From Staphylococcus sp. NRL 16/872 (GTDB lineage: Bacteria; Bacillota; Bacilli; Staphylococcales; Staphylococcaceae), in contig NZ_CP119327.1 of the NCBI RefSeq assembly GCF_022815905.2, positions 310,001 to 374,000 of the forward strand: a stretch of DNA of 64,000 bases. The letters run 5' to 3'. Numbering within the stretch: the stretch's first letter is position 1; each line of letters opens with the position of its first letter. Both the position numbers and the translations under genes were made by a program. Below the pieces are notes generated by a model. That model had not been told where the DNA came from. It saw only the letters and a list, made by a program, of their open reading frames with translations, and did not search any database. Shown here one piece after another: positions 3,213-33,650 of the stretch.

Positions 3213-4416
3213 AAATAATGTGAAACCTAAAAATCCAATTATGAGTAATATTATATTAAGTATCCTTTTCATATTACTTCTAATTGGATCTCTAAATGCC
3301 AACGGTTCTAGAATCGGTATTATATCTCTAGGAATTGTAGTTGGTTATACGAATGTATTCTATTTTCTTAAAATTATTTATAAAAGACATGTTAAATTTT
3401 CAGATTTGATTATACTATTGTTAACAATTTTTTATATAGTTATTTCTCTAATTTCCTCTCAAATTGGATTAGGAAATAAAGGTCTTACGAATACATTTGA
3501 ATTTGTAGCTTGTATAGGAGTTTATTTATATTTTTCTAATAGTGATTGGAATGAAAAAGTGATACTCATGTTTTATAGAATAAGTATTATTTTTGTTTCT
3601 TTACATTTTCTTATATGGGTAGGTAAGGGCTTTGGACGTCAATTTTCAAGTATATATCCTAATTCAAATATTTTAGGGCCTTTTATGTTTATAGCCATCT
3701 ATTTCATTTTAATGAGAATATTTACAACTAAAAAACGATTAATTCCATATGTTTTTCTATTTTTAGCGTTATTATTATTATTGGCTAGTGATACTAGGTC
3801 AGTATTATTATCAATGTTAATTGGCTTAAGCATTTATTTAATTTGGAATAAAATAATTAAATATAAAGCTGTCAGTGTAATTACTTTTATTTTGATAATG
3901 GTAATTTTTGGTTCTATAGTTTTCTTATATCCTAAATTACCAAAATGGAGTCAATATGGTAAATTAGAAGCTTGGATGTTAGAACATACTGGAAAAAGTA
4001 TAATGTCAGGACGAGCTGACATATGGGGAAGGTTGAATAATTTAATAGACATACGTCCAATATTTGGATTTGGACCTAATACAGTGGCTACCGATGTGAT
4101 TGGTAGAAATGCATCTTCACATAATCTGTATGTAAACATGGCTCTTCAAATTGGTTACTTAGGATTGTTAATATTTATTTTAATTTTATTTGTTATTTTT
4201 ATGAGATATGTTTCCAAAGGTCATAATCAATTAGTCCGTTTAGCGGTCGCTGCTTTTATAGCTATATTAGCACATCAGTTATTCGAAATTACTTTGGTAC
4301 AAAATCAGTTGTCAATTGGCTTAATACAATGGCTAGTTATCGCAACTGGAGCAGCAATGACTTTAAAATACTATGACATAAAAAATGAAAGTGAGGAAGT
4401 TAATCATGAAAAGTAA
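3202..4416 (+). CDS. O-antigen ligase/polymerase (Wzy-like) family membrane protein
   Basis: 404 residues from TTG 3202, with a purine-rich AAGAAAGGAAAG upstream. About ten to twelve hydrophobic segments surround one longer extracytoplasmic loop (about residues 250-320) that holds GRADIWGRL and the SSHNLYVNMALQIG stretch. The H-N-x-Y signature there is typical of Wzy_C/O-antigen ligase proteins. It would polymerise or ligate flipped repeat units outside the membrane. It sits between the flippase-like gene and the LCP gene, as expected for the end of a Wzx/Wzy-type pathway. Sequence in this family is poorly conserved, so polymerase versus ligase is undecided. Confidence 0.78.
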   Translation: MVHENNVKPKNPIMSNIILSILFILLLIGSLNANGSRIGIISLGIVVGYTNVFYFLKIIYKRHVKFSDLIILLLTIFYIVISLISSQIGLGNKGLTNTFEFVACIGVYLYFSNSDWNEKVILMFYRISIIFVSLHFLIWVGKGFGRQFSSIYPNSNILGPFMFIAIYFILMRIFTTKKRLIPYVFLFLALLLLLASDTRSVLLSMLIGLSIYLIWNKIIKYKAVSVITFILIMVIFGSIVFLYPKLPKWSQYGKLEAWMLEHTGKSIMSGRADIWGRLNNLIDIRPIFGFGPNTVATDVIGRNASSHNLYVNMALQIGYLGLLIFILILFVIFMRYVSKGHNQLVRLAVAAFIAILAHQLFEITLVQNQLSIGLIQWLVIATGAAMTLKYYDIKNESEEVNHEK

Positions 4417-5350
4417 ATCTAAACTTTTTAAAATTATCATTGGTATTCTAGTTTTCTTTTTAATAATTGCTGCTATTATTGGTGTTTTTATTTTTACTAA
4501 AGTAAAATCTTTAAATGATAGTGTGAATTCTCCGTTAAAAAGATCGCATTCTGAATTCAGAGATAAACCAACAAAAGATGGAGAACCGATGACTGTAGTA
4601 TTATATGGGATAGATAGCGATTCTCAAAGAGAAGAACAAAATTCTGGCCAACGTAGTGATTCAATTGTATTAATCTCAATTAATCCAAAAGATAAAAAAA
4701 CTGTGATGGTAAGTATACCTAGAGATACTCGTGCTAAAATTGTAGGAAAAGATTCAACTGAGAAAATTAACCATGCTTATGCATATGGTGGTCCTGATAT
4801 GGCTGTTAAATCTTTAGAACATTTAATGAATGTACCAGTAGATCATTATATTTCAATTAATATGGATGGAGTTAAGACGGTGGTAAATGAAATGGGTGGC
4901 GTTACACTTCCAAGTAATGCATCATTCACAACTAGAGACTCAAAAAACACATATCAATTTGAAAAAGGGAAAAAATACAAAATGGATGGAGAAAAAGCCT
5001 TAGCTTATATGCGTAGTCGTAAAGAAGAGGGCGCTGGTGGAGATGAAGGACGTCAATTACGTCAACAACAAGTTATTACTGCAGTTGCCAAAGAGGCCTT
5101 TTCAATTAATTCCATCACAAAATTAAATGGGATTTTTAAAGCTACTCGAGACAATTTAAAAACGGATTTAAGCTTTGTGCAGTTAAATGGTTTTAGATCA
5201 GATTATGATAAAGCTCAAGATAACGTAGAAAAGCTTACAATCGATGGTGAAAATAAAATCGGCGATGATGGATTATATTATTTCTATCCTGATAAAAATA
5301 GTTTGAGTAATGTCGAAAAGAAAATAAAGGATAATTTAAATCTAAAATAA
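4406..5350 (+). CDS. LytR-CpsA-Psr (LCP) family glycopolymer transferase
   Basis: About 314 residues. An in-frame ATG exists at 4385, but GTGAGGAAG just before ATG 4406 favours the latter. A short basic N-terminus leads into one membrane anchor (about residues 8-30), then an extracellular LCP domain with the expected signatures: LYGIDSD, RSDSIVLISINP, VSIPRDTRAKIVG, KINHAYAYGG, and ALAYMRSRK near residue 200 with basic pyrophosphate-contacting residues. LCP enzymes move undecaprenyl-linked polymers onto peptidoglycan. As last gene of the operon it very likely attaches this polysaccharide to the wall. Its start overlaps the previous stop, and a rho-independent terminator follows at once. Confidence 0.9.
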   Translation: MKSKSKLFKIIIGILVFFLIIAAIIGVFIFTKVKSLNDSVNSPLKRSHSEFRDKPTKDGEPMTVVLYGIDSDSQREEQNSGQRSDSIVLISINPKDKKTVMVSIPRDTRAKIVGKDSTEKINHAYAYGGPDMAVKSLEHLMNVPVDHYISINMDGVKTVVNEMGGVTLPSNASFTTRDSKNTYQFEKGKKYKMDGEKALAYMRSRKEEGAGGDEGRQLRQQQVITAVAKEAFSINSITKLNGIFKATRDNLKTDLSFVQLNGFRSDYDKAQDNVEKLTIDGENKIGDDGLYYFYPDKNSLSNVEKKIKDNLNLK

Positions 5351-5456: not shown

Positions 5457-6926
5457 TTATTGATTTTGTTGGCTTGCTACGTCGTTTGCGAAGAAGTCGA
5501 AGATATTTTTTGCGCTTTGAGTGTTGTCCATGTTGCCAGCGAATCTATCTTCACCTGGACCGTATGCGTAAGTGTTTACATCTTCACCTGTATGACCGTA
5601 TGTAGTCCAACCAGTGTGAGATTCATCGTTAATTGGTTTTTGGATAGCATCTTGTAATTTTGTAGTTGCTTCAGTGACTTTAGGGTCTTTGTCGTCTTTT
5701 GCTTTAGATTTAGCGTCTTTTAAGTCTTTCGCTGCTTCTTTAACTTTATCTAATTGATCACTAGGGAATTTGATTCCATAACCGTCATTGATAACTTCTT
5801 CTGGGTCTTTGCCATCAGCAATTTGTTTTGTCATGTAGCTACCAGAGTGTTTCATTTTGTGAATTGCTTCAGGGTTCCAAACGTAATCTTTACCTTTAGC
5901 GATTGATAAGCCACCAGTTGAGTGGTCAGCTGTTGCAACAACTAACGTATCTTTATGTGTATTTGCGTAATCGATAGCGTTTTGGAAAGATTTTTCGAAA
6001 CCACTCATTTCTGACATAACACCAGTGATGTCGTTAGGATGGCCAGATTTATCGATAGACGCACTTTCTACCATTAAGAAGAAGCCTTTGTCATTTTTTT
6101 CTAATTTAGATAATGCACTGTTTTCCATATCGACTAATAATGGATTTTCTTGAGGTGCATCGATTTGTAATGGCATATCTTTTTCAGAGAATAAACCTAA
6201 TACTTGATTGCTTTGAGAGTTTGCTAATTCATCTTTATTAGTAACATAGTCGTAACCATCTTGTTGGAATTTATCAGTTAAGTTGCCATTTTCCTTACCG
6301 AAGTATTTAGAACCGCCACCTAAGATAACGTCTGCTTTATGTTGTCCATTAATTTTATCGTTAAAGAATTGTTGAGCGATTTCATCTTTTTTATCACGGC
6401 TATCAACGTGAGATGCGTAAACAGCTGGTGTAGCATCTGTGACTTCTGCAGTTGTCACGATACCAGTTGATTTACCATCTTCTTTAGCTTGTTCTAATAC
6501 TGATTTAACAGGTTTTTTATCAGTATCTACTGAAATAGCACCATTGTATGTTTTTTGACCAGTTGCGAAAGCTGTACCACCAGCAGCTGAGTCAGTTACG
6601 TTTTCTTTAGGGTCATTTGGATTTGTACGGTTTGTACCTTTTAAATATTTATCAAATGCGGTTTGATCTAATTCTTTTGTATCTGGGTTATCTGCGAAAT
6701 AACGGTAAGCTGAGTTGTAAGACGGTCCCATGCCATCGCCAACCATGAAGATAACGTTTTTAGGATTCTTAGTGTTACCAAATGCGATAGCGCCATTATC
6801 ATTTTGTTGATCTTCTGGACCTGCGCCTGGACTAGATGCGAATGAAATTTGTGATGTTCCCAATAATGAAGCAGTTAAGATTGAACCTGCAACAGTAGTT
6901 TTACCGAATTTGTTGATGAAACTCAT
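5457..6926 (-). CDS. phoB: Secreted alkaline phosphatase
   Basis: 489 residues with an N-terminal signal peptide: basic start, hydrophobic core VAGSILTASLLGTSQI, and a likely cleavage after SFA near residue 30. Alkaline phosphatase signatures are all present: NVIFMVGDGMGPSY (first metal Asp), DSAAGGTAFATG with the nucleophile Ser, ASHVDSR, MVESASIDKSGHPND, VATADHSTGG, and a C-terminal HTGEDVNTYAYGP metal His. It releases phosphate from phosphomonoesters outside the cell. The start codon is preceded by AGGGGGC. A ladder of Pho-box-like repeats lies upstream, so induction by phosphate starvation is expected. The Lys/Asp-rich insert near residues 395-420 is typical of staphylococcal forms. It is a single-gene unit between two terminator-flanked operons. 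Confidence 0.93.
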   Translation of the reverse strand: MSFINKFGKTTVAGSILTASLLGTSQISFASSPGAGPEDQQNDNGAIAFGNTKNPKNVIFMVGDGMGPSYNSAYRYFADNPDTKELDQTAFDKYLKGTNRTNPNDPKENVTDSAAGGTAFATGQKTYNGAISVDTDKKPVKSVLEQAKEDGKSTGIVTTAEVTDATPAVYASHVDSRDKKDEIAQQFFNDKINGQHKADVILGGGSKYFGKENGNLTDKFQQDGYDYVTNKDELANSQSNQVLGLFSEKDMPLQIDAPQENPLLVDMENSALSKLEKNDKGFFLMVESASIDKSGHPNDITGVMSEMSGFEKSFQNAIDYANTHKDTLVVATADHSTGGLSIAKGKDYVWNPEAIHKMKHSGSYMTKQIADGKDPEEVINDGYGIKFPSDQLDKVKEAAKDLKDAKSKAKDDKDPKVTEATTKLQDAIQKPINDESHTGWTTYGHTGEDVNTYAYGPGEDRFAGNMDNTQSAKNIFDFFANDVASQQNQ

Positions 6927-7002
6927 TTTTTAAAAAGCCCCCTAATATGTATAAAGTAGTTGTTACACTTATATATTAAGAAACTTTATTTGATTTAAGA
7001 TG

Positions 7003-7037: not shown

Positions 7038-7143
7038 CAATTATTAATTTGTCTAATTTATAATATTTTTTATTTGAATTAATTTCTTATTTCTTTTCAG
7101 AAATTAAGGAGTAGGTTATAATGATGTTAAATAAAATAGTTCG

Positions 7144-7265
7144 TCTTATTAAGAGTGAGTGGAGGGATTTGGCCCTATGAAGCTCCAGCAACTGCGTTCA
7201 TCGTGAGGTGCTACATCCAACAGGAATTCCTGAAAGATAAGAAGATGTCTGGAAGCGCTTCTTAT
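7144..7265 (+). promoter_or_regulatory. SAM-I (S-box) riboswitch
   Basis: The stretch carries the conserved S-box blocks in order: CTTATTAAGAG, GTGGAGGGA, GGCCCTATGAAGC, CCAGCAAC, GAGGTGCTA, CCAACAGGAATTCCTG and AAAGATAAG. P1 pairs CTTAT (7144-7148) with ATAAG (7237-7241). The same ATAAG also belongs to a perfect hairpin ATAAGAAG/CTTCTTAT (7237-7265), so P1 and that hairpin exclude each other, as in a switch. A T-run at 7293-7299 and a weak GGG/CCC hairpin follow. Whether control is by termination or by hiding the GGTGG ribosome site at 7305-7309 is not clear. It controls the 56-residue ORF at 7317. Confidence 0.9.
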
Positions 7266-9848: not shown

Positions 9849-10598
9849 ATGCTATTAGACGTAAAAAATGTAAAGAAAACTTTCGGCAGGGGCTTAAACG
9901 CAACCACAGCCCTCAATGGCATATCCTTAACCATAGACAACGGCGAATTCGTCGCAATCATGGGCGAATCAGGCTCAGGCAAATCCACACTCCTCAACCT
10001 CATCGCCACATTCGACAAAGCTACAGAAGGCACCATTACCATCAACAACCAAGACATTCGTAAATTACGCAACAAACAAATCGCACATTTCCGTCGTGAT
10101 AACCTAGGCTTCGTCTTTCAAGACTTCAACGTCCTACCAACTATGACCAATAAAGATAATATGCTCATGCCACTCGTCTTAGCAAATCGCTCACATAAAA
10201 TTATGCAACAACGTTTAAATCAACTCAGCACCGAACTAGGCATTGAGAAATTACTAGATAAATATCCATATCAAATTTCTGGTGGGGAACAACAACGTAT
10301 TGCTATTGGACGTGCGCTTATCAATGAGCCAAATTTATTACTTGCCGATGAACCAACTGGCGCACTTGATTCAAAGACATCGAAGAATATTATGGACCTT
10401 TTCAAAAAAATAAATAATCATCAACAAACAATCTTAATGGTGACGCATTCAGCAGTGGATGCATCTTATGCAAAGCGTGTGTTGTTTATTAAAGATGGAC
10501 GTTTGTATCATGAGATTTATCGTGGAGAGGAATCACAACAAGATTTCCAGAAACGTATTGCGGATAGTTTAGCCATTCTGAATGAAAGAGGTGACTAA
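9849..10598 (+). CDS. braD: ABC transporter ATP-binding protein, BraD (BceA-type)
   Basis: About 249 residues from ATG 9849, with AAAGGAAG upstream; ATG 9828 is in frame but lacks a ribosome site. Walker [10 protein letters not shown] (about residue 40), Q-loop [14 protein letters not shown] signature [15 protein letters not shown], Walker [14 protein letters not shown] and H-loop MVTHSA are all intact. Together with BraE it forms a BceAB-type transporter that protects against lipid-II-binding peptides and acts as co-sensor for BraS. Oddity: roughly the first 110 codons use many C-ending codons (GGC, ATC, CTC, AAC), unlike the rest of the gene and its neighbours. The stop lies one base before the BraE start. 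Confidence 0.88.
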
Positions 10599-10599
10599 G

Positions 10600-12591
10600 A
10601 TGCCATTTCGTATGCTTTGGACGATGATTGGTCAGAACTTCAAAACACAACGCCATGTGATGATACCGTTTATTTTAGCGTTGGGTATGATATTTGGCAT
10701 TGAATTCATACTACTATCTTTAAACATGAATGAGTATGTACAAAAACGTAGTGATACGTTACCGATTTTTATAGGGTTAGGTAACTTTTTCATGAGTGTC
10801 TTAGGTTTTACCTTTATTTTATATGCGAATCGTTTCATGATGAAACGACGTCAACAGGAATTGGCGATGTATATGATATTAGGAATGGAGAAGAAACATT
10901 TCCAAATCATTATATTGATAGAAATGATTTATCAATATATTATGATTGCACTTCTTAGTATTTCAGGAGGCTATTTATTTGGTGCTTTAATTTTTATGTT
11001 GTTAAATAAATTGATGCATCAAACAGGCATGTCATTAATAGACTATCCCTTCAATATTAACGCTATGCTCATTACTTTATTAATGTTGGCAGTGCTAATG
11101 TTATTCTTATTTGTAATGAATAATATTAAACTATTATTCCAAAGTCCAATTAAATTAATTCAGCAACACCAGAAAATGGAGAAGCGATTACCTAAGCCCA
11201 TACTCTATATATTATTAATCATAGGTCTTATCGCCATAGCTATAAGTTATAAAACTGCCTTAAGTGATGTGTTATTAACTGAATCATTAGTCCATATTTT
11301 TAAGGCTGTCTTTCTTGTTATGTTAGGAACATATTGTTTGTTTATGTCATTAGGAGTTTTATTACTTGAATGGTTACAAAAAATTCCGAAACTGTACTAT
11401 CATCCGAAATATTTTTTCATTATTTCTGGTTTAAGATCTAGAATTAATACGAATGCTATCGGACTTGCCAGTATTTCTATTTTATGTACATTTTTAATTG
11501 TCACTTTGGGCATGACGATTACGACATATCGTGGTATAGACAAAAGCATCGATAAAATGATGCCTGACCAATATAAAATTTCAGTTAAAGGTAATGTGAA
11601 AACAGATAAGCACGTTCAACGTAAAGTGTATAACTTAGAACGTGATATTGAGAAGAATGCGAAGATAGATTTCTTTAAAGAAATACCAATAGCTATGGTT
11701 AGTTCTGCATACCAGCCTCCAAATAAATTTGTTAAAGAAAAAAATAACTTAACAAAATTGAACCTTAATAGTACTTTCTTAATTTTTATGACGCAAGATG
11801 AATATAATAAAGTGGCTACAAATAAAGTACATTTAAACAAAGATGAAGTAGGGCTTTCTAGCGATAGTTTAGTATTTAAAAAATTAAAACATCTCACATT
11901 GATGAATCAGCACTTTAAGGCGAGACAAGTCAATCAGTATAGTTATAGTTATAAGATGCCTTATGCATTAACAGTAGTAACGCCTAACAATAAAATTTAT
12001 AATCAATTAACACATTACTATTTAAGTGGTCTTTATTCACCTAGTCGTAATATGAGCATTTATGAAACAACATTTATAAATTTTAATATTATGACTAAAG
12101 ATGCTTCTCATTTTAATAAAATGATGAATCATCTAGAGGATAAATATAAAATTGATATTCAAACTAGACACGAAACTGCAACAGTTTTGTATGAATTTAA
12201 TGGTGGATTGATATTTATTGGTGTAGTTGTGTCTATAGTCTTGCTGCTTGGCACGTTCTTAATGATGTACTATAAAAATATTGCAGAAGGCTATGAAGAT
12301 CGTCGTAATTATCAAATTATGGCAAAAGTTGGGATTGAGGACGAACGTATTAAATCGACTATTAATCATCAGATTATTTGGATTTTTGCTTTACCGATTT
12401 TAGTAGCGATGATTCATGTCACTGTGGCGTTTAAATATATTTTCACGCTATTAGGTGCGTTAAGCATTACGAATATAGGTGTTTTCGCGACAAGTTATAT
12501 TGGTGTTATCATCACTGTTATCGCTATCTATGCCTTAATGTATTGGATTACGTCACGCATTTATTACCTAATTGTCCATCGTTATTTTTAA
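10600..12591 (+). CDS. braE: ABC transporter permease, BraE (BceB-type)
   Basis: About 663 residues. ATG 10600 with AGAGGTGA five bases upstream is preferred over ATG 10582, which would overlap braD. Ten membrane segments are expected: one at the N-terminus, groups of FtsX-like helices, and a large extracellular domain (about residues 310-530) between helices 7 and 8, which in BceB proteins recognises the peptide antibiotic. The last three helices (GGLIFIGVVVSIVLLLGTF and two more near the end) complete the fold. Function follows BraDE/VraDE of staphylococci: detoxification of nisin and bacitracin-like peptides and signalling to BraS. Confidence 0.88.
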   Translation: MPFRMLWTMIGQNFKTQRHVMIPFILALGMIFGIEFILLSLNMNEYVQKRSDTLPIFIGLGNFFMSVLGFTFILYANRFMMKRRQQELAMYMILGMEKKHFQIIILIEMIYQYIMIALLSISGGYLFGALIFMLLNKLMHQTGMSLIDYPFNINAMLITLLMLAVLMLFLFVMNNIKLLFQSPIKLIQQHQKMEKRLPKPILYILLIIGLIAIAISYKTALSDVLLTESLVHIFKAVFLVMLGTYCLFMSLGVLLLEWLQKIPKLYYHPKYFFIISGLRSRINTNAIGLASISILCTFLIVTLGMTITTYRGIDKSIDKMMPDQYKISVKGNVKTDKHVQRKVYNLERDIEKNAKIDFFKEIPIAMVSSAYQPPNKFVKEKNNLTKLNLNSTFLIFMTQDEYNKVATNKVHLNKDEVGLSSDSLVFKKLKHLTLMNQHFKARQVNQYSYSYKMPYALTVVTPNNKIYNQLTHYYLSGLYSPSRNMSIYETTFINFNIMTKDASHFNKMMNHLEDKYKIDIQTRHETATVLYEFNGGLIFIGVVVSIVLLLGTFLMMYYKNIAEGYEDRRNYQIMAKVGIEDERIKSTINHQIIWIFALPILVAMIHVTVAFKYIFTLLGALSITNIGVFATSYIGVIITVIAIYALMYWITSRIYYLIVHRYF

Positions 12592-14105: not shown

Positions 14106-15407
14106 CTAATTTAACCCTAAGTGATCTCTCAGGGTATGTCCTGTGTACGCTGTGCGATATAAACCACGACGTTGTAATTCAGGAACGATTAAATCTACAA
14201 AGTCTTTTAAGCTATGTGGGAGGGAAGGTGGCATTAAATTGAACCCATCTGCGACACCTTCGTTGAACCAATGCTCCATTTCGTCTACGATTTCTTCAGG
14301 TGTGCCGACTAAAGTTAAATGACCGCCTCCAGCATTTAAATAGCCAAGTAATTCACGAACAGTCGGTTGTTTGTCATTAATGATTTCAAGGATGGTTTCA
14401 TAACGACCTTTAGGTCCACTAAATTCTTCAAGTGGGGGTAATTCAGGAACGGGTTGGTCTAGTTCCCATTGATTACAATCTTGTTGGACAAAGAAACTTA
14501 ACTGTTTTAAAGCAGTTTCAACAGAAAGTAAGGCATCTAGCTCTGCTTTTTTAGCTTCTGCTTCTTCATGCGTACGCCCCACGTAAGTGACTAATCCCGG
14601 AAAGACTTTAATGTATCTTGGGTTATCTGTATTTTGTTTCATTTGAGCATCTAGTCTTTCACGATAGCGTTGAGCTTGTTTGAGATTCCACGCTACTGAA
14701 TAGACGGCATCAGCATATTTCGTAGCTAATGCAATACCGTGGTTAGATGAACCTGCTTGCATAGCAACGGGCTTTCCTTGTGGACTTTGTGGTGTAGTGA
14801 GTGGTCCACGCACTTGGAAATATTTACTTTTATGGTGAAGCGGTTGTATCGTTGTCGTATCCATCAACGTGCCGGCTTCACGATCAGGTTGAAAGTCCTC
14901 AGTAGTCCATGACTCAAACAACTCATTAACGACGTGGGCGAATTCGTCCGCCTTTTCATAACGAACAGCATGCTCAGGCAATGCTTCCATACTGTGGTTC
15001 TGAGCCTCCACATCTGTCATAGAAGTCACTAAATTCCAACCGACGCGTCCACCAGTGATATGGTCCAAACTTAATAACTGACGCGCTGCCGTAAATGGAT
15101 TTGAAAATGTACTCGAGATAGTGGGTACCAAACCAACATGATGTGTAACCTGGGAAATAGCCGTTAAGTTAATGAGCGGGTCAAACCAGAAACTCGGCAT
15201 CGTCGTGAAACCAGGATTGAAAGCTTGATTATCCGCAAAGAATACGACGTCAAATAGTCCTTTTTCGGAAAGTTGAGCTAGCTCTTGATAATACGTAATA
15301 TCACCAAGACGTTCAACGCTTGAATTAGATTGTTGCCAAGCTGCCTGATGATGCCCACAACCGTAAATTAAAATGCCAATGTGTAATTGTTGTTTCTCTT
15401 TCTTCAT
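14106..15407 (-). CDS. LLM-class FMN-dependent monooxygenase (NtaA/SnaA/DszA/DmoA family)
   Basis: 433 residues, the normal size for the NtaA/DszA group of bacterial-luciferase-like TIM-barrel enzymes. Landmarks: GILIYGCGHHQAAW at the N-terminus, FDVVFFADNQAF, TISSTFSNPFTAARQLLSLDHITGGRVGWNLVTS (the group's SGGRxGWNVVTS signature), AVRYEKADEF, and GKPVAMQAGSSNHGIALATKYADAVY (flavin phosphate site). Such enzymes use reduced FMN from a partner reductase to oxidise small S-, N- or aromatic substrates. It lies 93 bases after a SDR gene in one unit led by a TPP riboswitch, so the substrate may be a thiamine-related compound. That is inference. No FMN reductase is next to it. Confidence 0.88.
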   Translation of the reverse strand: MKKEKQQLHIGILIYGCGHHQAAWQQSNSSVERLGDITYYQELAQLSEKGLFDVVFFADNQAFNPGFTTMPSFWFDPLINLTAISQVTHHVGLVPTISSTFSNPFTAARQLLSLDHITGGRVGWNLVTSMTDVEAQNHSMEALPEHAVRYEKADEFAHVVNELFESWTTEDFQPDREAGTLMDTTTIQPLHHKSKYFQVRGPLTTPQSPQGKPVAMQAGSSNHGIALATKYADAVYSVAWNLKQAQRYRERLDAQMKQNTDNPRYIKVFPGLVTYVGRTHEEAEAKKAELDALLSVETALKQLSFFVQQDCNQWELDQPVPELPPLEEFSGPKGRYETILEIINDKQPTVRELLGYLNAGGGHLTLVGTPEEIVDEMEHWFNEGVADGFNLMPPSLPHSLKDFVDLIVPELQRRGLYRTAYTGHTLRDHLGLN

Positions 15408-15500
15408 AATGAATCACTAACACTCCAGTTTGTTGTTGGGATTTTGATTAAATAGAGAAGAATGCGTGCATTGAGTACGTCACTATCGACTCCAAAAGTT

Positions 15501-16250
15501 TTAGTTCATTGTTAAACCACCATCAACTGTAATGTTTTGTCCTGTAACGCCATTTGCGGCTTCAGAACTTAAGTACGCTACCATATTTGCCACGTCTTGA
15601 GGTGTAGTCACTTTGCGTAATGGTGTCGTTTGGGCAATCAAGTCAAATACTTCTGGTGTGGTTACAGCACTGGCATCAGTCGTTTTTAATAAGCCACCAG
15701 AAACCATATTAGCCGTAATGCCATATTGACCTAATTCAGCAGCAACGTTGCGTGTAAATCCGATTAAGCCTGCTTTGGCTGTTGTATATTCATGATATGG
15801 CACGACAGGATTTTGGAATAAATTTGTACCGATGCTGATGATACTACCAGCGTTACGTTCAATAAATTGAGGGACTACACTTTGAGTAACATTAAATGCT
15901 GCTTTTAATGTGCCATCAATTTGCTGTTGGTAATCTTCCCAAGTTAAGTCTTTAAATGCTTTTTGTGCTACTGGGTCAAACTTGAAATTGACTAACGCAT
16001 TATTGACAACCACATCGATTTGACCGAAATGGGCGGTTGCTTCTTTGACTAAACGTTCCACTTCTTCGCGTTGTGTCACGTCTGCTTGTAGTGCGATTGC
16101 GTTGTCGCCTAATTCTGTTGCTAACTGTTCAGCAGTCTCTTTACTCTTATTATAATTAATGACAACTTGAAATCCTTGAGACACTAATGTTTTTACGATG
16201 ACTGCGCCTAAACCACGGCCACTGCCTGTTACTAATACTGTTCTTGCCAT
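15501..16250 (-). CDS. Short-chain dehydrogenase/reductase (FabG-like SDR)
   Basis: About 249 residues from the ATG at 16250, which has TGGAGG eight bases upstream; the longer in-frame start at 16268 would overlap that ribosome site. Classical SDR marks: VLVTGSGRGLGAVI (dinucleotide-binding Gly motif), Asp in ALQADVTQ, VVNNALVNF in place of NNAG, catalytic Ser in ISIGTN, Y-x3-K in YHEYTTAKAGLIGF, and a C-terminal GVTGQNITVDGGLTMN as in FabG. It reduces or oxidises a carbonyl/alcohol with NAD(P)(H). It is the first gene after the TPP riboswitch and precedes the flavin monooxygenase. Fatty-acid synthesis FabG is unlikely given this context. Confidence 0.86.
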   Translation of the reverse strand: MARTVLVTGSGRGLGAVIVKTLVSQGFQVVINYNKSKETAEQLATELGDNAIALQADVTQREEVERLVKEATAHFGQIDVVVNNALVNFKFDPVAQKAFKDLTWEDYQQQIDGTLKAAFNVTQSVVPQFIERNAGSIISIGTNLFQNPVVPYHEYTTAKAGLIGFTRNVAAELGQYGITANMVSGGLLKTTDASAVTTPEVFDLIAQTTPLRKVTTPQDVANMVAYLSSEAANGVTGQNITVDGGLTMN

Positions 16251-16281
16251 TGCACAAGCCTCCATCACTTTCTTTTACAGT

Positions 16282-16319
16282 AAAAAAATACGCAACCTTC
16301 GCTAGGAAAGTTGCGTAAA
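16282..16319 (-). terminator. Riboswitch-controlled terminator (TPP expression platform)
   Basis: On the minus strand ACGCAACTT pairs with AGGTTGCGT and T7 follows. The loop-side ACTTTCCT is complementary over eight bases to AGGAAAGT at the end of the TPP aptamer, giving a competing anti-terminator. High TPP should therefore allow termination before the SDR gene. Confidence 0.85.
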
Positions 16320-16384
16320 TGATAGATATGTATATAGAAAAGAGATTTGACATAAAATCTCTATCAACATCTAAAATTTATCCC

Positions 16385-16470
16385 ACACTTTCCTACGCTA
16401 GTATGAACTAGTTCAGGTTCAAAGGGTTCGAGGACAAGCCTCATCTCAGTTAAAAAACACCCCTAGTGCA
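16385..16470 (-). promoter_or_regulatory. TPP riboswitch aptamer (THI element)
   Basis: On the minus strand the conserved THI-box blocks appear in order: ACTAGGGGTG, CTGAGATGA, ACCCTTTGAACCTGA, CTAGTTCATACTAG and GCGTAGGAAAGTG. The final block overlaps the anti-terminator. It lies about 135-220 bases upstream of the SDR start. Confidence 0.94.
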
Positions 16471-16490
16471 TATATTAATACTATATTTAC

Positions 16491-18590: not shown

Positions 18591-19793
18591 ATGTACACGA
18601 TTGGACTCGTACCTTCGCCGGGCGTGGCACGTAAACATGTCGACTGTGCGATACCCAAGATACAAGGCTTACTTCAACAACGTATTAATAGCAACGTAGA
18701 TTGGAAGTTCGAAACCAAAGTCGACTTATTAATCGGCTCAGCAGAAGATGTGTACGCAAGTATAGATAAAGCTGCTGAATTAAAGAAACAAAATGAGTGG
18801 GATTTCGTCGTTTGCATTACCGACTTACCAAGTATCTCAGGTAACAAAGTCGTTATTAGTGACTTTGATAGTGAACAACAAATCGCAATGATATCGATGC
18901 CTTCATTAGGCTGGTTTAATTTTGAACGTAAATTAGTTAACAGTATTACGTCATTAATTGAGCAATTGTATTACGACAAACCTAAATCTCACCCTAAATT
19001 TTCACTATTTATTCGTCCGAAAGCAGTGGAGCCGAGTGAGGATGATAGTACAAAACAACGCTATATCAATCCTTTCCTTATATTAGGGTGGATTCAACTT
19101 ATACTGGGGTTAACGCGGGCGAATGAACCGTGGAAGAATATCTTTAATTTTAAAAAAATTATTTCAGTGGCATTTGCGACAGGGACCTATGTTTCTATTT
19201 TTTCAATGCCTTGGGAATTAAGTGTTCAATATTCAATTTATCGATTTATTATTTTAATGATTATCGCTATCGTAGGCATGGCAGGCTGGTTACTCTATGC
19301 ACATCAATTATTTGAACGTAAAACAGCGAAATCTCAACGGGTTTATCGTTATATTTATAACGCTACAACGATGCTCACATTAATTTTAATTACATTAATG
19401 AATTACGTGATATTATATGTTTTACTATCTATCAGTATTTCACTATTTGTACCTGTGAGTTTATTTAATAATTGGACAAGTGCGAATCCGGATTTTACTT
19501 TTCAAAATTATTTAAAACTCTTATGGTTTGTAGCGTCATTAGGCTTACTGGCTGGAGCAATGGGATCTACAGTAGAGGACGAAGAAAAAATTCGTCGCAT
19601 TACGTATTCATATCGCCAGTATCATCGTTATAAAGAAGCGGAACAAGAAGAACAGAAAGAGGAAGAACAACAACAATCTGCTTCTCAAGATGAGTCACAA
19701 CAACAAGTAGAACAATCCGCTTCAAATAAAGAAGATAATGAAGAAGCGCATGAAGGTAAAAAACAAGACCACAGAGAGGAGGATGAAGGATGA
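18591..19793 (+). CDS. Uncharacterised protein: N-terminal alpha/beta domain plus C-terminal membrane domain (paralogue A)
   Basis: 400 residues after AAAAAAGGAGGGAG. The first ~150 residues look soluble and alpha/beta (TIGLVPSPGVARKH, EWDFVVCITDLPSISGNKVV, AMISMPSLGWFNFERKLV). Residues ~185-335 hold four or five membrane helices. A low-complexity Glu/Gln/Ser tail of about 55 residues ends the protein. The same plan, with matching motifs (GLV.PGV, W[DY][FY]VV.ITDLP, GW at the end of a strand, G[LM]T.AN.P, WF.AS, T[YG]YRQ), occurs in the next gene, so the two are tandem paralogues with ATGA-overlapping stop and start. The soluble part somewhat recalls Rossmann-like folds but I see no catalytic motif. 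Function unknown. Confidence 0.85.
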   Translation: MYTIGLVPSPGVARKHVDCAIPKIQGLLQQRINSNVDWKFETKVDLLIGSAEDVYASIDKAAELKKQNEWDFVVCITDLPSISGNKVVISDFDSEQQIAMISMPSLGWFNFERKLVNSITSLIEQLYYDKPKSHPKFSLFIRPKAVEPSEDDSTKQRYINPFLILGWIQLILGLTRANEPWKNIFNFKKIISVAFATGTYVSIFSMPWELSVQYSIYRFIILMIIAIVGMAGWLLYAHQLFERKTAKSQRVYRYIYNATTMLTLILITLMNYVILYVLLSISISLFVPVSLFNNWTSANPDFTFQNYLKLLWFVASLGLLAGAMGSTVEDEEKIRRITYSYRQYHRYKEAEQEEQKEEEQQQSASQDESQQQVEQSASNKEDNEEAHEGKKQDHREEDEG

Positions 19794-20905
19794 GTAATAA
19801 CGACGAAAAATTAGTTGGTTTAGTTGTCGCGCCAGGCGTCACTGAAACCTTAGGCGAAAGTTTAATTGATGAGCTACCAGACATTTTGTCACAACAACAC
19901 AATCATCAACACGATTGGAAAATTGATCTCGTCGCTGATCCTCTGACTGGTTTTGCTGAATCTGTAGAAGAAATCTTCAAAAAAATTCAAGATTATCATG
20001 ATGAAAGACAATGGGATTATGTGGTTGCTATTACAGACTTACCAATGTTTTATCAGCACCATGTGTTAGCTTTAGATATTAATAAAAAGAATGGGGCAGC
20101 CATTTTTTCATATCCAGCATTTGGATGGCGACCTGTTAAGAATCGTTTTAAGAATGCTATCGTTACGATAATCAATGAAGTACATCGTTCAGAAGAACAA
20201 AACAAAGAATACGATGATGATAATAGTGTTAAAAATATGATGAGTAAGCAATTTCCTTTCTCAAAAATTAAAAAAACAGAAGTTTATTTAGAGGAAACAA
20301 AAACGAATCATTTACGTTATTTATCTAACTCACGTTCTGCAGGTATGTTACGTTTAGTCAGTGGCATGACCTTTGCGAACAATCCATTAAATATGATGGC
20401 AAGTCTAAGCAATATCGTAGCGATTGCCTTTACAACTGGCGCATTTGGCCTAATCTTTACAACGATGTGGCAGATGAGCATGGAATTTTCAATGTGGCGT
20501 CTCTTTGGAATCTCGGTCATCGCGATTCTCGGGATGTTGGTATGGATCATGTTGTCTCACAATTTATGGGAATCAACTAAACATAGTAATAATAAGCGCA
20601 TCATTTGGTTATATAATTTAACAACCGTTATGACCTTATTAATCGCTATTATTATTTACTACATTATCTTGTATCTATTATTCTTAATCGCAGAAGTCGT
20701 TCTCTTACCAGCTAATTTCTTAGGACAACAAGTAGGATTGAAAGGACCAGCTGGCATAAATTTATATCTCAGCATTCCATGGTTCGCCGCTTCTATATCT
20801 ACTGTGGCCGGTGCGATTGGCGCTGGTTTATTGAATGATCAACTGATTAAAGAAAGTACGTATGGTTATCGCCAACAAATGCGTTATAACGATAGAAACC
20901 AATAA
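19790..20905 (+). CDS. Uncharacterised protein: N-terminal alpha/beta domain plus C-terminal membrane domain (paralogue B)
   Basis: 371 residues, ATG overlapping the previous TGA, with GAGAGGAGG upstream: strict translational coupling. N-terminal half: LVGLVVAPGVTETLGESLIDEL, QWDYVVAITDLPMFYQHHV, AIFSYPAFGWRPVKNRF. The linker is charged (to about residue 175), then comes SGMTFANNPLNMMASLSNIVAIAF and four to five helices, ending in WFAASISTVAGAIGAGLL and TYGYRQQMRY. It lacks the acidic tail of paralogue A. A stoichiometric hetero-complex in the membrane is a fair guess. No enzyme signature is visible. A terminator follows at 20932. Confidence 0.85.
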   Translation: MSNNDEKLVGLVVAPGVTETLGESLIDELPDILSQQHNHQHDWKIDLVADPLTGFAESVEEIFKKIQDYHDERQWDYVVAITDLPMFYQHHVLALDINKKNGAAIFSYPAFGWRPVKNRFKNAIVTIINEVHRSEEQNKEYDDDNSVKNMMSKQFPFSKIKKTEVYLEETKTNHLRYLSNSRSAGMLRLVSGMTFANNPLNMMASLSNIVAIAFTTGAFGLIFTTMWQMSMEFSMWRLFGISVIAILGMLVWIMLSHNLWESTKHSNNKRIIWLYNLTTVMTLLIAIIIYYIILYLLFLIAEVVLLPANFLGQQVGLKGPAGINLYLSIPWFAASISTVAGAIGAGLLNDQLIKESTYGYRQQMRYNDRNQ

Positions 20906-20973: not shown

Positions 20974-21128
20974 AAATTATTTTCCGGGAAAAATAAATAT
21001 AGAAAATTTCAAAGAAGTCATTTAAAATTAAGCGTAAATACTACGTGTGTATACATAAAAATAGAGAAACCTTATTTCACACTCATCATTGTTATTACTC
21101 TCATCAAGAAGTGAAAGGAAGGTCATTT

Positions 21129-21914
21129 ATGAAATATTGCACTCAATGTGGAAATGAAATTAACGCTCATCAACGTTTTTGTAACAGATGCGGTCACGAT
21201 TTAAAAGCATTTGAACAGTATCGGGATAGTGAAATTTATTTCCAACCTCAACCGTCAGAATCATATCAACCAAAGCGTAAAGTTTGGCCGTGGGTTGTTA
21301 TAGGTATGCTCATTATTGCTATTATATTTGCAAGCTCTCTTACATATTATTTCTTCTTTATAAAAGATGAACAACATACGCCAAACGAAACTACCACTAC
21401 CCAACATACTTCAAAAACTGAAAAACAAACAGGTGAACATAAAGTATCTAATGACCCTAAAAAATCTGAAAAACATGAATCAGAAAAAGAGAAAGAGAAT
21501 AAAGTTAAATCTCCAAAAATTGATGTCATGAGTGAAGATTTCGAAAGAACCTATATGCAAAGTAATAATTTAGGTGGCTATATGGGCGTGAGAAAAGGAA
21601 TGTCTCATTCAGAAGTAGAAAAAATTGTAGGAAAACCTACCGGCACATTAAAAGTGGATGGCTTTAAATGGGAATCTACCAAATATGGCAATTTAACAGT
21701 GGATTATGATAATAAAGGCGACGATGGAAAAGTCATAGCAGTAGGGGTATCTCCTGATCATGTCACAACGAGTGAATTTCTTGAGCATTATCCTGCATAT
21801 GATGATTACAGTGGTTCGGAGATTGTGTATAACAACTTTAAAGGTAACGGTTATTTAGTTGCCGTAGATATTGATCATGGTTATATTGCTAAAATTCAAT
21901 GTCTTGCTGAATAA
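21129..21914 (+). CDS. Zinc-ribbon membrane protein with extracytoplasmic BamE/SmpA-like domain (paralogue 1)
   Basis: About 261 residues from ATG 21129 (GAAAGGAAGG upstream); the longer frame from 21045 has no ribosome site. Order: zinc ribbon CTQCG-x14-CNRCG (residues 4-24), linker, one membrane helix (VWPWVVIGMLIIAIIFASSLTYYFFF, about 57-80), a Lys/Glu/Thr-rich spacer, then a folded domain with YMGVRKGMSHSEVEKIVGKPTG, resembling the helix-turn of SmpA/BamE-like or DUF-type small outer domains. Zinc-ribbon-plus-TM proteins such as TcaA are common in staphylococci, but this one is shorter. Function unknown. A paralogue follows directly. Confidence 0.82.
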   Translation: MKYCTQCGNEINAHQRFCNRCGHDLKAFEQYRDSEIYFQPQPSESYQPKRKVWPWVVIGMLIIAIIFASSLTYYFFFIKDEQHTPNETTTTQHTSKTEKQTGEHKVSNDPKKSEKHESEKEKENKVKSPKIDVMSEDFERTYMQSNNLGGYMGVRKGMSHSEVEKIVGKPTGTLKVDGFKWESTKYGNLTVDYDNKGDDGKVIAVGVSPDHVTTSEFLEHYPAYDDYSGSEIVYNNFKGNGYLVAVDIDHGYIAKIQCLAE

Positions 21915-22004
21915 TTAGTCATGTATAAATTTTAATTCACTCATATACAAGTTTCACAAACAACTCAGTCTTAAAATCAAGAAAAGTGAAAGGTAGATGA
22001 ATAT

Positions 22005-22805
22005 ATGAAATATTGTCCTCAATGTGGTAGCCCATTAAAAGAACATCAACATTTTTGTAATCGATGTGGATGTGATTTACAAAGTTTTGAATATAACCAT
22101 AATCAAAACTATAATTATTTCTCAGAGCAACCGAAGCGAAAACGTTCAGTTTGGCCATTTATAGTCATCGCTATATTTGTTATTGCGATTATTGTGAGTA
22201 GTTGTTTCGCGTATTATCACTTTTTCCTAAAAGGAAATGAACAAGCACAAAATAAACCGGCGACTACGCAACATGTTTCAAAAGAAGAAGAGAAACAGGG
22301 CGAGCATAGAATTTCAAATGACCCTAAAAAAGCGGAAAAGCAAAGAGAAGAAGAAGAAAAAACAGACAAAGCAGATAAAGAGAATGCACCTCAACCACCA
22401 AAAATAGATGTCCTATCAGATGGATTTCAAACAACATATATGCAACAGAACAATTTAGATTCATTTATGGGAATTAAAGTAGGGATGAGTAGAGATGAAG
22501 TAGAAAAACGTTTTGGTAAAGGAAAATTAATGCCTCACATTACTGGTTTTGATGATGATTATATAAAATATGGCAATATAGCTATTATTTATAATCCAAG
22601 AACGCAAGATAACACTGTGTGGGGGATAGCTGTGGCACCAGATAACGTGAGTGAACAAGAATTTATTAGAAAGTATAATACTTATGACCAACATACAGGC
22701 TCAGGAGCTTATATTTATAACAATGTCAAAAATAATGGATTTGAAATTTTAGTTACTCCCGTAAATGGGAAAGTTGCGTTAGTAGAATGTATTCCAGAAT
22801 ATTAA
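22005..22805 (+). CDS. Zinc-ribbon membrane protein with extracytoplasmic BamE/SmpA-like domain (paralogue 2)
   Basis: 266 residues with the same plan as the preceding gene: zinc ribbon CPQCG-x14-CNRCG, linker, helix (SVWPFIVIAIFVIAIIVSSCFAYYHFFL), spacer rich in Lys/Glu, then FMGIKVGMSRDEVEKRFGKG and the matching C-terminal domain (YNTYDQHTGSGAYIYNNV, VALVECIPEY). Shared phrases such as THQHVS-like spacer text and HRISNDPKKAEK/HKVSNDPKKSEK show a recent tandem duplication followed by divergence. GTGAAAGG precedes the start. Probably a membrane sensor or assembly factor; no direct evidence. Confidence 0.82.
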   Translation: MKYCPQCGSPLKEHQHFCNRCGCDLQSFEYNHNQNYNYFSEQPKRKRSVWPFIVIAIFVIAIIVSSCFAYYHFFLKGNEQAQNKPATTQHVSKEEEKQGEHRISNDPKKAEKQREEEEKTDKADKENAPQPPKIDVLSDGFQTTYMQQNNLDSFMGIKVGMSRDEVEKRFGKGKLMPHITGFDDDYIKYGNIAIIYNPRTQDNTVWGIAVAPDNVSEQEFIRKYNTYDQHTGSGAYIYNNVKNNGFEILVTPVNGKVALVECIPEY

Positions 22806-33401: not shown

Positions 33402-33433
33402 TGAGCCTGTGACATTATTATATGTTACAGGCT
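33402..33433 (+). terminator. Terminator after the small membrane protein
   Basis: GAGCCTGTGAC pairs with GTTACAGGCTC; T-rich tail is weak. Confidence 0.75.
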
Positions 33434-33510
33434 CATCTTACATATTGGCAGTAGCTAACTGAATTGAAAATGCGCTTATATTAAGCTTTTTTCAATTCTA
33501 GTTATCCTTG

Positions 33511-33616
33511 CCGGGGAGCGGGGTCCCAACATAGAGACTTTCGAAAAAGAAAGTTTACGGCCAACGTGAGTTGGGGTTGGACGACGAAATTATTTTAATT
33601 TCTGTTCCGCACCCAT
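33511..33616. repeat. Staphylococcal intergenic repeat (GGGTCCCAACATAGAGA family)
   Basis: The stretch holds GCGGGGTCCCAACATAGAGA, GACTTTCGAAAAAGAAAGTT, CCAACGTGAGTTGGGGTTGG and AATTTCTGTTCCGCACCC, the blocks of a palindromic intergenic repeat seen many times in staphylococcal genomes. Two internal dyads (GACTTTC/GAAAGTT and CCAAC/GTTGG) give stable RNA hairpins. No ORF. It lies upstream of the Fur box. Confidence 0.75.
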
Positions 33617-33621
33617 TTTAT

Positions 33622-33650
33622 TTGACTGCATAATTGATAATCATTATCAT
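33622..33650 (+). promoter_or_regulatory. Promoter overlapped by a perfect Fur box
   Basis: TTGACT (33622-33627), 17 bases, TATCAT (33645-33650). TGATAATCATTATCA (33635-33649) is a perfect 7-1-7 Fur palindrome covering the spacer and -10, so iron-replete Fur should block this promoter. Confidence 0.85.

Follow-up and report, generated by a model that had tools for sequence, protein, structure and literature searches.

A TPP riboswitch-led SDR-LLM unit of staphylococci, conserved across three bacterial phyla and with a possible role in vitamin B1 salvage

Thiamine metabolism is regarded as well charted. Even so, two genes that follow a TPP riboswitch, one for an SDR-family oxidoreductase and the other for an LLM flavin monooxygenase, were found together in 96 of the Bacilli genomes examined (among them a few in which a gene is broken and a single one that lacks the SDR) and in two more phyla. 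The unit was thus found across three bacterial phyla, namely Bacillota, Actinomycetota and the one represented by a member of the Alphaproteobacteria, and it is a member of the thiamine regulon either by its conserved TPP riboswitch or by an operon shared with thiamine genes. Since the same riboswitch-SDR-LLM unit is present in three phyla, its enzymes likely form an undescribed vitamin B1 salvage route. The unit is described here from a 64,000-nt stretch of the Staphylococcus sp. NRL 16/872 genome (contig NZ_CP119327.1, positions 310,001 to 374,000), hereafter called the window, in which all coordinates are given.

Organization of the unit and predicted control

The features of the unit, all located on the minus strand, are as follows:

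14106..15407, minus strand: gene for an LLM flavin monooxygenase of the NtaA/DmoA family (TIGR03860, 487 bits; Bac_luciferase in Pfam)
15501..16268, minus strand: gene for an SDR-family oxidoreductase (NF006393, 406 bits; adh_short_C2 in Pfam)
16290..16316, minus strand: predicted intrinsic terminator hairpin (-14.8 kcal/mol) followed by a U-run (7 U)
16373..16474, minus strand: TPP riboswitch aptamer (THI element; RF00059, 78.3 bits, full length)
16386..16398, minus strand: aptamer 3' strand, predicted antiterminator partner of the terminator 5' arm (duplex -18.3 kcal/mol)

The aptamer matches RF00059 over model positions 1-105, with the score well above the gathering score of 54.3 (E 9e-14), and both genes follow downstream on the same strand. 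The terminator hairpin lies between the aptamer and the SDR gene. Since the aptamer 3' strand can also pair with the 5' arm of this hairpin, the leader is predicted to be a transcriptional OFF switch, in which the terminator forms when TPP is bound and the antiterminator forms without TPP. The two states lie at most 1.4 kcal/mol apart in a calculation for the unliganded leader. A terminator together with antiterminator complementarity was found in 86 of 87 leaders of relatives versus 56 of 435 controls, in which blocks of three bases rather than dinucleotides were shuffled; the count omits L092, L109, L143, L149 and L190 as well as L111-L113 and L117, which are copies from the same strain, and a regex match to the aptamer was lacking in nine loci. 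The SDR reading frame as listed opens with a GTG at 16268, and the likely true start, judged by the GGAGG located 8 bases upstream of it, is the ATG at 16250.

The two proteins

The SDR scores 406 bits with the NCBIfam model NF006393, '3-oxoacyl-ACP reductase', the cut-off of which is 292, and falls below the cut-offs of the FabG equivalog models NF004198 (173.1 vs 296 bits) and TIGR01830 (173 vs 297.75 bits). NF006393 bears the same product name as the FabG models. The classical SDR fold and the cofactor motif TGxxxGxG are common to FabG and the window's SDR, but the catalytic Ser of FabG is replaced in the latter by Thr, which is the first residue of the motif Thr-x8-PYHxYxxAK shared by all 101 orthologs, 95 of which are distinct sequences.

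The LLM reaches 487.2 bits with the NtaA/DmoA model TIGR03860 (NCBIfam; curated cut-off 279.7) and is 95-96% identical to the LLMs of S. pragensis, S. croceilyticus and S. petrasii, to which the source of the window is close. A sequence-only reading of this DNA had described a THI element leading a two-gene unit with a FabG-like SDR and an LLM-class monooxygenase of the NtaA/DszA group; this observation is confirmed by the results above.

The LLM shows 36% identity to CmoJ (6ASK), equal to its identity to NtaA (3SDO), and 26-32% to BdsA, EmoA, DmoA and riboflavin lyase. NtaA, EmoA, DmoA and BdsA belong to the same TIGR03860 subfamily and share the predicted fold at 29-36% identity, differing from the window's LLM in gene context. 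NtaA and EmoA release glyoxylate from N-carboxymethyl groups. No flavin-reductase gene is present in the unit. In a predicted structure (pLDDT 84.6, modelled without the start Met) the best match among solved structures was CmoJ. Derivation of the function from the fold alone was rejected, as the model fits the whole CmoJ/NtaA/BdsA group and names no substrate. CmoJ/YtnJ, an alkylcysteine sulfoxide C-S monooxygenase that acts on N-acetyl-S-alkylcysteine sulfoxide, is predicted to share the LLM fold with the window's protein, at an identity of only 36%; according to the available text of PMC10863075, it splits the sulfoxide C-S bond with release of an aldehyde, and its substrates include an S-benzyl compound. 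The setting differs from that of CmoJ as well: none of the genes seen next to the window's unit belongs to cysteine salvage, and the unit is predicted to be controlled by TPP.

Twenty-eight positions are conserved in the TPP-linked LLM clade and absent or rare in 19 paralogs, offering no clue to the substrate; this comparison comprised 102 clade rows including near-identical strains, the broken or partial L092, L109, L143 and L231 being omitted. In a tree, 22 TPP-linked LLMs from Bacillota, including that of the window, form one group with a support of 100/100. The placement of the Pseudochrobactrum, Rhodococcus and Streptomyces proteins was not used, the first two having no clear position in the tree and the rows of the last two being heavily trimmed (33% and 43% of columns, respectively).

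Conservation of the unit

An LLM ortholog (at least 65% identity) was found in 50 of 84 Staphylococcus genomes, and all 50 possess the SDR and the TPP riboswitch. The SDR gene adjoins the LLM gene in 49 of 49 genomes plus the window, and the riboswitch upstream was detected by its core motif in 47 of the 49 and by Rfam in the other two and in the window. Map reading sorts the flanks of 41 of the 50 loci into some ten different neighbourhoods, all of which surround the same three parts. The rest of the order contributed 16 further genomes with 17 loci, each with an Rfam-positive aptamer and SDR sequence, the SDR being fragmented in L094 and the LLM being split by inserted transposase-like genes in L092. 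Thirty loci came from other Bacilli, 12 of the genomes being those from outside the order in a class sample of 398 and 18 more coming from a family of 261; the TPP core motif stands in front of the unit, or of the operon that contains it, in all 30, the SDR is adjacent in 29, and the 20 genomes submitted to Rfam were all aptamer-positive.

A search of the plasmid collection with the LLM gave 697 matching records at E 1e-60, and the seven with the best matches came from Mesobacillus, Pseudochrobactrum, Rhodococcus and Exiguobacterium. One record per genus was taken, and in all four the SDR gene is followed by the LLM gene and preceded by an Rfam-positive aptamer, with the LLM frame interrupted in Exiguobacterium. 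The LLMs of the Pseudochrobactrum (Alphaproteobacteria) and Rhodococcus (Actinomycetota) plasmids are 52% identical to that of the window. In the next plasmid record, from Streptomyces nigrescens (44%), no aptamer is present within 6 kb, and the Mesorhizobium and second Rhodococcus LLM loci (42%) have neither an SDR gene nor an aptamer motif.

As a paralog control, 20 of 83 further LLM matches were taken, 19 of which are paralogs with 33-43% identity. None of the 19 loci has the SDR, and none of the 18 testable loci has a TPP riboswitch, L231 beginning at a contig end and so not being testable for the aptamer. The control locus L230 is a broken copy of the LLM ortholog that has kept the riboswitch. 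A chance riboswitch is excluded by the conservation of the unit together with this control. The sequence-only reading would have been refuted by a lack of the riboswitch-gene link in relatives; the link persisted at the level of genus, order and class and also in two more phyla, and the unit is better conserved than could be known from the window itself.

Thiamine genes in the vicinity of the unit

In total, 101 unit loci, including the window, were scanned with 17 thiamine-gene references over flanks of 1.5-6 kb. Thiamine genes are located in or beside the unit in 14 of them, and in every one of these 14 at least one belongs to the thiazole half (thiG, thiF or thiM); thiC and tenA occur in or beside none of the 101, and the remaining loci have no thiamine gene within the fetched flanks. 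Six loci from one genus-level group (L143, L145, L146, L195, L196 and L197) have the arrangement TPP-tenI-thiO-thiG-thiF-SDR-LLM, with TenI and ThiO of L195 backed by family models. In another five (L095, L097, L100, L193 and L194) the unit faces a tenI-thiG-thiF operon, from which thiO is absent in every case. In L144, one riboswitch precedes SDR-LLM-thiM-thiD-thiE-thiW, and in L093 a piece of thiF lies across the riboswitch from the unit. L148, L149 and L199 carry a relic of the thiM start between the aptamer and the SDR gene, which in L149 is fused to a thiW relic.

Among the 157 genomes of the order, LLM and ThiG occur together in 62, LLM only in 4, ThiG only in 42 and neither in 49 (Fisher p 6e-11), so that ThiG is present in 62 of 66 LLM-positive genomes vs 42 of 91 LLM-negative ones. 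For the genus Staphylococcus the corresponding numbers are 49, 1, 24 and 10 (p 4e-4), and for LLM and ThiC in the genus they are 30, 20, 13 and 21 (p 0.07), with two ThiC genes in two pieces; all these tests ignore kinship. In line with the co-occurrence, the LLM is broken and ThiG absent in G046 and G102; against it, an intact LLM was found and ThiG was not in G070, G124 and G139, and in G425 ThiG is present and the LLM is interrupted by a stop. G139 has unread bases beside a second aptamer.

Because thiamine genes share an operon with the unit or face it in several lineages, a thiamine-related role is well supported. This part of the sequence-only reading stands on the operon partners and the conserved riboswitch link, and its further proposals, a salvage role and the kind of compound acted on, are retained at the strength of a suggestion. 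Among the compounds that it named, the evidence leans to the thiazole branch, a choice that the sequence-only reading did not make.

Other TPP riboswitches of the genome

The genome from which the window was taken has seven TPP riboswitches, including that of the unit. Four of the others precede thiC, tenI-thiO-thiG-thiF, tenA-thiD-thiM-thiE and ykoEDC (TenA, ThiD, ThiM, ThiE and YkoC/D were named by sequence reading and not by family search), and the last two lie in divergent orientation, with a ykoE-like gene on one side of them and a LuxE-LuxC-SDR operon on the other. The SDR of this operon is 34.5% identical to that of the unit and has PYHxYxxAK in common with it, the catalytic Ser being kept; its best model is also NF006393, with 253 bits (cut-off 292), followed by one with 182. 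LuxE and LuxC pass the Pfam cut-offs and not those of the NCBIfam equivalogs. Relatives of LuxE and LuxC convert acids to aldehydes, so an SDR acting from aldehyde to alcohol would fit both operons. A thiamine catabolite such as 4-methylthiazole-5-acetic acid would be a suitable compound for the LuxE-LuxC operon.

Proposed role of the unit

The reading that we prefer, and hold only tentatively, is that the unit is likely switched on at low TPP and salvages a modified thiazole half, the LLM yielding a carbonyl compound and the SDR converting it to hydroxyethylthiazole for ThiM. When TPP is scarce, the leader would read through and the SDR and LLM genes would be on. The LLM would oxygenate the modified thiazole and release a carbonyl, by analogy with its relatives CmoJ and NtaA; the SDR, probably working in the reductive direction, would reduce it to hydroxyethylthiazole or a close form, which ThiM, by phosphorylation, and ThiE would use. 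The thiazole branch is suggested as the target by the operon partners and the co-occurrence with ThiG. As thiO and thiG already make thiazole in most staphylococci, such salvage would be a supplement. Several points speak against this reading: most unit loci stand alone and point to no branch, ThiD and ThiE of L144 serve both halves, and the unit lacks a gene for a flavin reductase. The salvage genes thiM, thiW, thiD and thiE have the same predicted regulation and share an operon with the unit in L144; their products belong to families unrelated to the SDR and LLM, which would act upstream of them. If true, this brings an oxygen-requiring reaction into B1 salvage and gives a function to an LLM subgroup. 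A broader version, which is possible though rather doubtful, takes the unit as part of an undescribed, horizontally mobile salvage arm in which, under TPP starvation, the LLM strips a modified thiazole to its aldehyde, a dedicated SDR reduces the latter to hydroxyethylthiazole, and LuxE-LuxC-SDR, with the ykoE-type transporter gene opposite it, reaches the same aldehyde from the carboxylic acid.

Salvage of the pyrimidine half, in which HMP aldehyde would arise when the LLM cuts a pyrimidinylmethyl-N or -S adduct and would then be reduced by the SDR to HMP for ThiD, is an unlikely reading, yet it has several points on its side. There are 19 Staphylococcus genomes with the LLM and ThiG and without ThiC, and lacking ThiC they need pyrimidine from outside; thiD lies within the L144 operon, and the pyrimidine branch is made possible by these LLM-positive species and by the fact that thiD and thiE serve both halves. 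The benzyl-like position of the bond would also fit, if compared with the S-benzyl substrate of CmoJ in the available text of PMC10863075. Against it stand the lack of thiC and tenA in or beside all 101 unit loci and the weak association with ThiC, which is present in 30 of 50 LLM-positive vs 13 of 34 LLM-negative genomes of the genus (p 0.07). It is quite improbable that the pair supplies de novo thiazole synthesis in the manner of ThiO, the LLM hydroxylating glycine or an N-substituted glycine to dehydroglycine for ThiG. In its favour, NtaA relatives oxidise N-carboxymethyl groups, thiO is missing from all five tenI-thiG-thiF operons facing the unit, and SDR-LLM sits within operons with ThiO, ThiG and ThiF. 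Against it, ThiO is present in the window's genome and in most LLM-positive genomes, and among ThiG-positive genomes the LLM shows no enrichment in those without a strong ThiO hit (5 of 8) over those with ThiO (57 of 96). Moreover, G043 has an intact tenI-thiG-thiF with neither ThiO nor LLM, and the scheme leaves the SDR without a place.

The predicted expression at low TPP and the stand-alone, mobile distribution would suit a TPP-sparing bypass in which the pair replaces a TPP-dependent step, as B12-independent isozymes do under B12 riboswitches, but thiazole genes in the same operon are not predicted by it, and we regard it as very unlikely. Least probable of all is the detoxification of a thiamine antivitamin or analogue: the accessory, partly plasmid-borne distribution is in keeping with such a function, whereas a gene shut off by any ligand that occupies the aptamer is poorly suited to removing that ligand, and the operon partners are again not predicted.

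Relation to described TPP regulons

The gene name oarX reportedly appears in a 2002 comparative-genomics paper on thiamin by Rodionov and colleagues; a search of the open-access literature for 'oarX' returned unrelated papers only. No paper joining a TPP riboswitch to an LLM/SDR pair was found in the open-access literature, with regulon databases and subscription papers being outside the search. The RegPrecise RNA-regulon paper (PMC3766115) covers 7 Staphylococcaceae and, in its available text, describes TPP riboswitch regulons as comprising thiamin biosynthesis and precursor transport. The words 'monooxygenase' and 'oxidoreductase' are absent from its main text, and the SDR-LLM pair may be listed, without a function, in its supplementary tables, the supplement being outside the search. 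The unit resembles the regulons described there in the aptamer family, the OFF-switch layout and, in some lineages, the operon shared with thiamine genes, and differs from them in that its enzymes are not among the thiamine genes described in the available text (PMC3766115). The same two words are absent from the available text of PMC12632268 on TPP riboswitches of ESKAPE bacteria, and PMC10789242 and PMC7793946, as far as their available text goes, deal with the thiC riboswitch of Paenibacillus. A thiamine gene regulated by TPP is of a known kind; no description of these enzymes or of their step was found in the literature searched. The pair is annotated merely as '3-oxoacyl-ACP reductase' and 'LLM class oxidoreductase'.

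Second TPP-switched unit

The genome of strain NRL 16/872 contains, outside the window, a LuxE-LuxC unit which is accompanied by an SDR gene and located opposite a ykoE-like gene (locus L008, genome C1:154086-158428), with a TPP riboswitch on each side, one for LuxE-LuxC and one for the facing ykoE-like gene. The LuxE-LuxC/ykoE-like arrangement is likewise found at the comparison loci L085-L088. LuxE is present in 4 of the 84 Staphylococcus genomes, all four of which possess the facing riboswitch pair and the ykoE-like gene. The LuxE-LuxC unit may serve in the reduction of a thiamine-fragment carboxylic acid.

TPP-SDR-LLM units in other genomes

At the Bacilli locus L195, the tenI-thiO-thiG-thiF-SDR-LLM operon is followed, after roughly 3 kb, by a further TPP riboswitch (10549-10655), which precedes three ORFs of 320, 327 and 518 aa. 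Genome G149 from the order Staphylococcales carries the TPP-SDR-LLM unit twice (L093 and L094), with the SDR gene being fragmented in L094. In both the Pseudochrobactrum and Rhodococcus plasmid records, a gene annotated as SRPBCC family is located upstream of the unit on the opposite strand, the two genes being unequal in length:

L107 (Pseudochrobactrum), 6013-6987, strand opposite to the unit, SRPBCC family gene
L108 (Rhodococcus), 4132-4641, strand opposite to the unit, SRPBCC family gene

Other features of the window

Three Rfam matches besides the TPP riboswitch, and two tandem pairs of similar-looking genes, were detected in the window:

6022-6125, sau-13, Staphylococcus sRNA (Rfam)
7143-7243, SAM riboswitch (Rfam)
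18591-20905, tandem pair coding for two membrane proteins
21045-22805, tandem pair coding for two zinc-ribbon proteins
33410-33634, S35, Staphylococcus sRNA (Rfam)
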